From Endocalyx cinctus (taxonomy: Eukaryota; Ascomycota; Sordariomycetes; Amphisphaeriales; Apiosporaceae), in NCBI GenBank assembly GCA_001600455.1, contig BCKC01000010.1, positions 1 to 64,000 on the forward strand: DNA of 64,000 nucleotides, written 5' to 3'. Shown here one piece after another: positions 21,778 to 24,161 of the stretch. The position numbers and the translations under genes are program-made. Each line of letters starts with the position of its first letter. Position 1 is the stretch's first letter. The notes below the pieces were generated by a model. The model had not been told where the DNA came from and did not search any database. It saw only the letters and a list, made by a program, of their open reading frames with translations.

Positions 21778-21789
21778 AAAAAAAAAAAA
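21778..21789 (-). terminator. possible Pol III T-run terminator
   Basis: Twelve consecutive T on the minus strand, 51 nt beyond the last tRNA base. It is the first long T run downstream of the tRNA; the distance is larger than usual, implying a longer 3' trailer. Confidence 0.45.
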
Positions 21790-21840
21790 GGGGTTGTCCA
21801 TGGTTGATATCTCACTGTGGAAGTGAGGCACCGGGAATTG

Positions 21841-21969
21841 AGCCCGATGCGGGGGTCGAACCCGCAACCTTGAGATTAAGAGTCTCACGCTGTGAAATGG
21901 ATTAGTAATTGAGGTATAGAATCAAGAATCTATGATATTACTGACCTCTACCGATTGAGCTAACCGGGC
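21841..21969 (-). tRNA. tRNA-Lys (anticodon CTT) interrupted in the D arm
   Basis: Minus strand, 5' end at 21969, discriminator base at 21841. Without the insert at 21890-21945 the sequence folds into a complete cloverleaf: acceptor GCCCGGT / ATCGGGC, D stem GCTC / GAGC, anticodon stem TGAGA / TCTCA around loop CTCTTAA (anticodon CTT), and T stem GCGGG / CCCGC with loop TTCGACC. Both internal promoter elements are present: an A box (TAGCTCAATCGG) and a B box (GGTTCGACCCC). The gene lies 312 bp beyond the stop of the decarboxylase at 22282. The insert falls between positions 24 and 25, not at 37/38 where eukaryotic tRNA introns normally lie. Either it is removed by an unusual route or the gene is inactive. 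Confidence 0.85.
21890..21945 (-). other. 56-bp GT...AG insert inside the tRNA D stem
   Basis: On the minus strand the insert begins GTCAGTAATA right after ...GGTAGAG and ends CATTTCACAG right before CGTGAGACT. It has a donor-like GTCAGT, a branch-like ACTAAT 11 nt before the end and a CACAG acceptor: all marks of a short fungal spliceosomal intron. Precise GT-AG removal regenerates a perfect tRNA. A small hairpin (ATAGA / TCTAT) lies inside. Confidence 0.75.
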
Positions 21970-22281: not shown

Positions 22282-24161
22282 TCAAACAATGATCTCTTTC
22301 CCAACCTCCTGGAGCGCCTTCACTAAACCTTCTACTGTTCCCTTCAATGTCTGGATGTTGACAACGACACGGAAGAATTCGCCGTTTTCACCAGGCGCGT
22401 AATCGATCATAAAGGACCGCTGTACGAGCTTTGAAGCCATCATCCTTGTTCTACGAGTATTTTCCTTGTTATCTGGGAGCGGAGTGCCATTTGGTGTATA
22501 GTAGAAGCAAACCTGGAGGCAAGGAGGTGGATTCTCAGACAGTAAGTAAAAGTGTGGCGACGTCGCGATAAGATCAGAAAGATAGGCCGCCGCCGCAAAG
22601 GCACCATCAATCTGGGTCTCGAACCCGTTCGCGCCGTAGTAAATCCATGATAAAGCTAGCTTGAGACTGTCGCCACGACGCCCGCACTGCAATGTTAAAT
22701 CAGCCAAGTCCCAATACTCTGTTTCCGGTCCGCCTGCTCCATTTTCGTTACCATCGTTTTCGTCACTACCGTGGAAGAGATACCCGGCGGGCAGCGTGTT
22801 CGCCCGGTGGAAGACGGAGAGGTCGTTTGTCAGCAGGAATGAACAAGTAATGGGCACGTTCATCATTTTGTGCGGGTTGACAGTTATACTGTCGGCTTTC
22901 TCGATGCCGCGAAATTTTCCCGTTCGCTTCTGTGCATCGGAGAAGATGGCGGGACCGCCCCACGATGCGTCCACGTGAAGCCACAGGCCGAATTCTCGGC
23001 ACACGTCGGCGATTTTGTCGAAAGGATCGAAAGACCCAAATACGGTCGTCCCCGCTGTGGCGTTGACGTACAGCGGCGCCATGCCTAGCTCATCCCTTGC
23101 TCGCAATATCGCGTCACGCAAGTCACCCGGTAGCATCCGCCCTGATGCGTCGACGGCGACAACCACGACGCTTGAGGAACCCATACCGCAGGTTCCGGCC
23201 GCTTTCTCAACCGAGTAGTGACCGTGGGCGCTGGTGAAAAGGGCGAACTTGTGGACGCCGTTGCCGCCTGCCTTCGTTTCTGGGAAGAGCGTGTTGCGCG
23301 CTACTACTAGGGACGTCAGATTAGAGCCACTACCGCCCTGACAGGTCACACCGCCGGCGCGGGGACCCGTGAACCCGAATTGGTGTGCGAAAGCGCGGGC
23401 TGTTGTCTTTTCAATTATTGTCAAGGCCGGCGAGGTAGAATAGATGTGCACCTAGAACATTATGAGACTCGTGTAACTGCCAATCTATTAAATGTGATAG
23501 ATAGTCTGCCGCTTTATGAAGCGTATTTGTGACTTTAAGCAGTATACTTACATTTGTATTCAAGACCGATATGAGGAGCTCGGAGACAACGCCTACCTGT
23601 ACGGAATCACTCACTATCGCGTTAGCCCGTCATATTCCCGTTAAACATAGTAGGAAAACGATTGTTTTGGGTGATAGTTGGCACTAACAGCATTCGTGCT
23701 TGAGTACAGTTTATCTAGGAACCCTTGATCCCAAGTATTGACACTGAATTTCAAAATGCTTTGAATGGTGTTAAGTAGACCCTCTCTACCTCTTCCATCC
23801 GCCATAGGGAGCGAAAACTCAAGCAGCCTATTTAACTCTTCTGGGCGATGGGAATCGACCAAGACATTGTGACGATGGATCGAGCCTTGGATATCTTTAT
23901 CATTACTGCCAGAGCCGTCTGAGTCGCCGCTAGACCTATTGAGTAATGCATTGTCTGCACTCCGGATGTATGGAATTATGAGAATTTTGACAGCTTCGAT
24001 TAGCTTGAAGTGGAAAGGATCGAGACCATTATTAGCTAGTTAGGATGGATCTTTGCTGAAATGGATATAAATCAAATAGGGGGGAAGCAAAACCGGGCAA
24101 TTTGCTCCTCTTCGCTATGACTTACTTCCTCGACCTCGGCAGCCCTGCTCAGCGTCGCCAT
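22282..24161 (-). CDS. group II PLP-dependent decarboxylase (glutamate/cysteine-sulfinate type)
   Basis: Decarboxylates an amino acid, probably glutamate, aspartate or cysteine sulfinate; the substrate cannot be fixed from sequence. Four exons on the minus strand: 24161-24126 (MATLSRAAEVEE), 24003-23689, 23596-23552 and 23451-22282, all joining in phase 0, 521 aa, a normal length. Intron 1 has donor GTAAGT, branch CTAAC and acceptor TTCAAG. Key motifs: SVNTWDQGFLDKLYSSTNA, SVLNTN, GGVTCQGGSGSN, HVDASWGG (Asp near 293, contacts the PLP ring) and VNPHKMMNVP with the Schiff-base lysine near 327. No transit or signal peptide, so probably cytosolic. This is the animal-GAD/CSAD-like clade rather than the bacterial GadB type. 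Confidence 0.9.

Follow-up and report, generated by a model that had tools for sequence, protein, structure and literature searches.

The window, the 64,000-nt stretch of Endocalyx cinctus contig BCKC01000010.1 that was analyzed, carries on its minus strand a tRNA-Lys(CTT) gene whose D arm is interrupted by an insert with the ends and internal motif of an mRNA intron. The features of the gene, its trailer, and its presumed terminator are listed in Table 1.

Table 1. Features of the interrupted tRNA-Lys(CTT) gene, in window coordinates
Feature	Position	Strand	Details
tRNA-Lys(CTT) gene, D arm interrupted	21969-21841	minus, 5' end 21969	129 nt; 73 tRNA bases
Exon 1, tRNA positions 1-24	21969-21946	minus	24 nt
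56-nt GT-AG insert, putative spliceosomal intron	21945-21890	minus	sits after tRNA position 24
Exon 2, tRNA positions 25-73, anticodon CTT	21889-21841	minus	49 nt
Donor GTCAGT	21940..21945	minus	flanks GAG|GTCAGTAA
Branch-site-like ACTAAT within TACTAAT	21901..21906	minus	putative branch A 21902, 12 nt before last intron base
Acceptor CACAG	21890..21894	minus	
A box TAGCTCAATCGG	21951..21962	minus	all in exon 1; by inspection
B box GGGTTCGACCCCC	21851..21863	minus	all in exon 2
51-nt 3' trailer with hairpin	21790..21840	minus	common to all five Lys(CTT) genes found
12-T run, presumed Pol III terminator	21778..21789	transcribed (minus) strand	

The insert begins GTCAGTAA, carries TTACTAAT near its end, and closes with CACAG. 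The preliminary description had noted an otherwise perfect tRNA-Lys(CTT) with 56 extra bases after position 24, which open with GTCAGT, contain ACTAAT 11 nt before their end, and close with CACAG; the exact match, the coordinates, and each of the motifs were confirmed. It had also proposed that removal of the insert restores the tRNA, and the joined 73 nt proved identical to two uninterrupted genes of the same genome (73/73 nt with both C10:1538822-1538894 and C10:1580992-1581064). Because AG is present at both borders, the insert can be placed in three ways that leave an identical tRNA, and one of the three gives GT...AG. ARAGORN reported zero tRNAs in the window, and in the covariance search that had been proposed, the interrupted gene barely passed Rfam RF00005: its score of 29.2 bits just exceeded the cut-off of 29, in an alignment of the model to 21841-21914.

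A DNA search of the genome with the window locus identified five Lys(CTT) loci, and a second query returned the same five. Two are uninterrupted, one has an ordinary intron of 14 nt, and two, the window gene and the gene at C6:425866-425996, have a D-arm insert. The C6 insert, which is 58 nt long and occupies the same site as that of the window gene, reads GTTAGTAA...TGCTAACTC...TTCAG, with the donor GTTAGT and the branch motif TGCTAAC; this gene scored 29.6 bits with Rfam RF00005, again against the cut-off of 29. The tRNA bases of the two interrupted Lys genes are identical (73/73). Donor, branch, and acceptor are retained in both inserts, and the cores between the donor and the branch region are unalignable (score, -1.0, versus a shuffled mean of -0.97 with an sd of 2.26). 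Over their whole length, the inserts aligned with 38 of 62 columns identical and a score of 8.5, which none of 300 shuffles reached (mean, -1.1; sd, 3.1), because the insert ends match and the core does not.

A third interrupted gene, a tRNA-Arg(ACG) at C12:490911-491057, contains a 62-nt insert in the D loop directly after GG. This insert reads GTACGATAACA...GTGACTAACAATTTACCATAG and has a GTACGA donor, a GACTAAC branch motif, and a CATAG acceptor. The gene has a second, ordinary intron in the anticodon loop (11 nt as split). Its 74 exon bases match 74/74 bases of both other Arg(ACG) genes in the genome, which lack a D-arm insert, and the ordinary introns of these genes differ. The Arg gene was discovered from B-box patterns in the genome, the corresponding regions being scanned by a script that required an A box together with an acceptor stem and T arm and ignored splice signals. 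Rfam did not report the gene, even at permissive thresholds.

The genome (44.8 Mb in 15 contigs) was surveyed for tRNA genes by several routes, and the resulting census is incomplete, the whole-genome Rfam search having scored 63 of 1,473 first-look candidates; the genome may therefore hold more interrupted tRNA genes. A query of nine yeast tRNAs returned six Gly(GCC) genes only. The B-box regions fetched comprised 43 of 43 places not already known for GGGTTCRANYCCC, 6 of 27 for AGGTTCRANYCCT, 11 of 15 for GAGTTCRANYCTC, and 12 of 21 for TGGTTCRANYCCA, together with 44 further places for GGTTCRANYCC from 100 listed of 405. The resulting table of 92 rows was reduced to 87 by dropping L106, L112, L137, L148, and L169 as false or tRNA-like only. 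The cloverleaf test was passed by 86 of the 92 rows; the passes of L112 and of the interrupted gene on C6 were false, leaving 84 ordinary genes. The 87 tRNA loci kept thus comprise 3 with D-arm inserts and 84 of ordinary architecture, and 50 of the latter have an anticodon-loop intron. His and Pro genes detected by Rfam (L087, L088, and L102) stand outside the table, and Phe (GAA), Tyr (GTA), and Cys (GCA) anticodons were absent among the collected loci.

The preliminary description had suggested looking for other GT-AG inserts in tRNA genes of this genome, and the C6 Lys and C12 Arg genes are two such cases, each with a branch motif. A rule was set by which an insert should start with GT, end with YAG, and contain CTRAY with its A 8 to 25 nt before the end; every placement that yields the intact tRNA was allowed. 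All three D-arm inserts found fitted GT...CTRAY...YAG, with GT...AG ends in 3/3. When the letters of each insert were shuffled 300,000 times, the rule was satisfied at frequencies of 1.6e-4 (window), 2.5e-4 (C6), and 1.5e-4 (Arg). The figure for the window locus is post hoc, as the motif had already been noticed there; the C6 and Arg loci were located without splice motifs, by tRNA homology and by architecture, respectively. The C6 test may not be independent of the window test if one insertion is ancestral to both, and the Arg test is independent of both. As a control, ordinary anticodon-loop introns were examined in eight placements each, and 0 of 50 fitted the rule or even GT...AG; these introns are mostly short, with 43 of the 50 below 40 nt and only 7 of at least 40 nt. 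A chance match to the motifs was set aside on the basis of the shuffle frequencies and this control.

The putative branch A lies 14 nt (C6) and 13 nt (Arg) before the last intron base, close to its position in the window insert. The U1-complementary donor consensus is CAGGTAAGTAT and the branch consensus is TACTAAC; both Lys donors match the former at 8 of 11 positions and the Arg donor at 5 of 11, a weak match, and the branch motifs of all three inserts match the latter at 6 of 7. Introns often sit after AG or GG, as these inserts do.

The inserts were compared with mRNA introns of the host. Protein homology delineated five introns of 83 to 122 nt in two window genes, with the donors GTAAGT (twice), GTTAGT, GTACGA, and GTTTGT. 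Three of the five, including those opening with GTTAGT (23688-23597) and GTACGA (3636-3533), are flanked on both sides by tblastn matches, and for the remaining two the upstream exon was recognized by eye. CTRAY occurs within 36 nt of the end in three of these introns, and the full rule is satisfied by only two, those with GTTAGT and GTACGA. The donor GTCAGT opens a 71-nt intron at L189 4405-4475, which has CTAAC 21 nt from its end and joins the frames YTIQ|ETLRLHPPVP; from a P450 motif, we take these frames to be P450-like. All three donors of the tRNA inserts therefore also begin mRNA introns in the examined sequence, GTTAGT and GTACGA in the window and GTCAGT at L189. The inserts, at 56, 58, and 62 nt, are shorter than the five window introns; the P450-like intron measures 71 nt, and a candidate from a reading-frame search measures 51 nt. 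That search was contaminated, giving 24 candidates from 41 segment pairs, with CTRAY in the expected place in 4 of the 24. Motif counts over 43 loci (212 kb), which include two of the tRNA inserts themselves, showed no excess of acceptor-like sites (77, versus 72 in shuffles), and donors were modestly enriched (GTNNGT, 18 versus 8.9 in shuffles, maximum 15; GTNAGT, 9 versus 2.7, maximum 6).

The window proteins resemble those of Xylariales: a serine hydroxymethyltransferase is 91% identical to its Monosporascus counterpart, and a pyridoxal phosphate (PLP) decarboxylase is 70% identical to that of Biscogniauxia. The PLP decarboxylase gene (22282-24125, minus strand) has three introns by homology, one of which opens with GTTAGT like the C6 insert.

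Judged by sequence, each of the three interrupted genes retains an intact A box, B box, and T run, the downstream T runs being of 12, 8, and 18 residues, and from such signals the genes are predicted to be transcribed. A test for pseudogene decay found exons identical to those of insert-free copies (73/73, 73/73, and 74/74) and no decay of exons or boxes. The inserts lie outside the ordinary 37/38 position, after position 24 in both Lys genes and in the D loop after GG in the Arg gene. Before splicing, the Lys precursors lack a normal D arm in their minimum-energy folds, and the joined sequence folds into a cloverleaf. Folding gives no information on the Arg gene, whose minimum-energy structure is not a cloverleaf when the ordinary intron is retained.

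These inserts are almost certainly mRNA-type introns, and it is very likely that they are spliced in vivo; taken as a whole, we consider it likely that three Pol III tRNA genes carry mRNA-type introns in the D arm and that the spliceosome removes them. Pol III, directed by the intact A and B boxes, would transcribe each gene as far as the T run, and the spliceosome would then excise a U2-type intron with a GTNNGN donor, a CTAAY branch, and a YAG acceptor. The exons would join as a normal tRNA-Lys(CTT) or tRNA-Arg(ACG), with end processing to follow, and the Arg precursor would also need the tRNA endonuclease for its anticodon-loop intron and would thus pass through two splicing systems. Identical exons beside unalignable cores, together with intact boxes and T runs, argue for use of the product, and that the spliced RNA yields a used tRNA seems reasonably likely. 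Gene conversion could also keep the exons identical. With moderate confidence, we favor the joint proposition that spliceosomal introns were gained at least twice (in Lys and in Arg, at different sites) and kept by selection for splicing, and that the Arg precursor needs both machines. The suggestion of a spliceosomal intron in a tRNA gene, as put forward in the preliminary description, was much strengthened by two more tRNA genes with GT-AG ends, branch motifs, and no bulge-helix-bulge; the removal itself is something we infer.

The same genes could instead be dead, with small insertions having killed single copies and plain copies supplying the tRNA, a reading that fits the existence of insert-free copies for each isoacceptor and is how eukaryotic tRNA genes with D-arm insertions are usually viewed. 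In section 5 of PMC4090602, insertions of the D-arm type are described as mostly hitting one of many synonymous genes and as marking supposed pseudogenes. The interrupted copies are dispensable, because such inserts are absent from three further Lys(CTT) genes and from two further Arg(ACG) genes. Several intact tRNA-Lys(CTT) genes together with an absence of spliced reads had been named beforehand as favoring a dead copy; intact copies do exist (two uninterrupted and one with an ordinary intron), which is half of that sign. Dead copies would not be expected to share GT...CTRAY...YAG in 3/3 inserts, to keep identical exons beside unalignable cores, or to retain A and B boxes and T runs intact, and we regard this explanation as unlikely. 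A further reading accepts the inserts as real mRNA-type introns and confines their splicing to Pol II read-through from the upstream gene, leaving the Pol III product unused. All three genes do lie no more than about 350 nt downstream of a same-strand coding frame: the PLP decarboxylase at about 310 nt, a deaminase-like frame (recognized by eye) at about 350 nt, and a P450-like gene (by eye) at about 80 nt, as measured from the last frame read. With random strands, however, a same-strand neighbor in three of three cases has a chance of about 1 in 8, and it would be a coincidence for 3'-untranslated-region introns to fall between the A and B boxes at tRNA-restoring points each time; we regard read-through splicing alone as a real but improbable alternative.

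Removal by the tRNA splicing endonuclease is the route for ectopic introns in red algae, nucleomorphs, and certain archaea, such introns being documented in Cyanidioschyzon merolae and nucleomorphs (PMC4090602, section 5, and PMC3978253), and three of the four central pairs can form at the annotated junctions of both Lys inserts. A bulge-helix-bulge at the borders had been named beforehand as a sign of this enzyme and was not formed: the best arrangements reached 5 to 6 of 12 pairs, scores attained by 34 to 57% of shuffles, and bulge-helix-bulge cutting was set aside for this reason. Endonuclease cleavage does not predict GT-AG ends with branch motifs, and the eukaryotic enzyme is considered, in section 5 of PMC4090602, to measure distance from the tRNA body, which leaves this route very unlikely and spliceosomal removal preferred.

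Transposon or introner copies were also considered as a source of the inserts. Introner elements are newly gained spliceosomal introns that occur in many near-identical genomic copies, and the present inserts would resemble them in being newly gained. No inverted repeats of at least 7 nt were present in the 81-nt stretches around the inserts, and no second copies of the three inserts were returned from the genome at E <= 10, a weak result in view of the short queries and the skipping of common words. This origin was set aside on these two results.

Among known systems, the closest is the U6 snRNA of fission yeast, a short Pol III RNA with an mRNA-type intron (PMC10484740, in a passage citing Tani and Ohshima 1989 and 1991); that intron has been proposed to arise by reverse splicing near the catalytic bases. 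The host RNA here is instead a tRNA, in two isoacceptors and at two positions. In the present genome, the single U6 gene that scored above the cut-off covers family positions 1-105 in 110 nt and thus has no insert of intron size. Ectopic D- and T-arm introns of tRNA genes in C. merolae, nucleomorphs, and archaea likewise lie outside 37/38 and include D-arm positions, but they are linked, in the sections of PMC4090602 that treat them, to bulge-helix-bulge cutting, and those of the Guillardia theta nucleomorph measure 3 to 24 nt, whereas the present inserts have GT-AG ends and a branch motif and lack a bulge-helix-bulge. Ordinary 37/38 introns, found in the 50 of 84 other loci and in the interrupted Arg gene itself, differ from the inserts in position, ends, and motifs. 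Fungal nuclear rRNA genes hold mRNA-type (spliceosomal) introns, according to an excerpt of PMC11782384, and thus also place such introns in a noncoding RNA, although rRNA is a Pol I product and not a tRNA. Among the titles and abstract openings listed from mostly open-access literature, with two of the listings cut short, none describes a nuclear tRNA gene with a spliceosomal intron. U6 provides the known example of such an intron in a Pol III transcript, and the putative introns described here would extend it to tRNA.

Splicing of tRNA and splicing of mRNA are taught as separate systems, which a spliceosome-processed tRNA, if true, would join. Intron gain would then be able to reach Pol III genes beyond U6, and the genes would offer a system for studying spliceosome action on a first exon that is uncapped and very short and that also folds. 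Such genes elsewhere may be missed or filed as pseudogenes, since the Arg gene went unreported and the Lys genes barely passed the Rfam cut-off; the portion of PMC8450103 consulted describes the noncanonical-intron search of tRNAscan-SE 2.0 for archaea.

The trailers of the five Lys(CTT) genes (window 21840-21790, minus strand; L064 5134-5182; L002; L001; and L014) share the arrangement CAATTCCCGRTGCCTC-hairpin-GATATCA before the T run, with GATGTCA in the C6 copy, and the 5' flanks of these genes differ. Changes occur on both sides of the hairpin stem. The trailer motif CCCGRTGC is complementary to the 3' end, GCATCGGG, of the tRNA-Lys itself. When intronless Lys RNA was folded together with its trailer, the minimum-energy structure was a cloverleaf for two of the five trailers and an alternative fold for three.

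Several further loci were observed during the survey. L137 (C1:3202907-3203060) and L148 (C10:787969-788135, minus strand) are tRNA-like genes that combine A and B boxes with an acceptor stem and a T arm; in place of an anticodon arm, each has a long insertion that appears to form an extended hairpin. Neither matched Rfam, and L137 carries a GT...CTAAA...CACAG stretch. L121 (C5) and L122 (C8) are similar to each other and have the B box TTAGGTTCGATCCCTAA, with no tRNA fold found and no Rfam match, and perhaps represent another Pol III RNA family. L039 (C6:1523641-1523790) is a 55-bit tRNA with the UGA-decoding anticodon TCA and a 77-nt anticodon-loop intron, and it resembles an opal-suppressor or tRNA-Sec gene, in an ascomycete.
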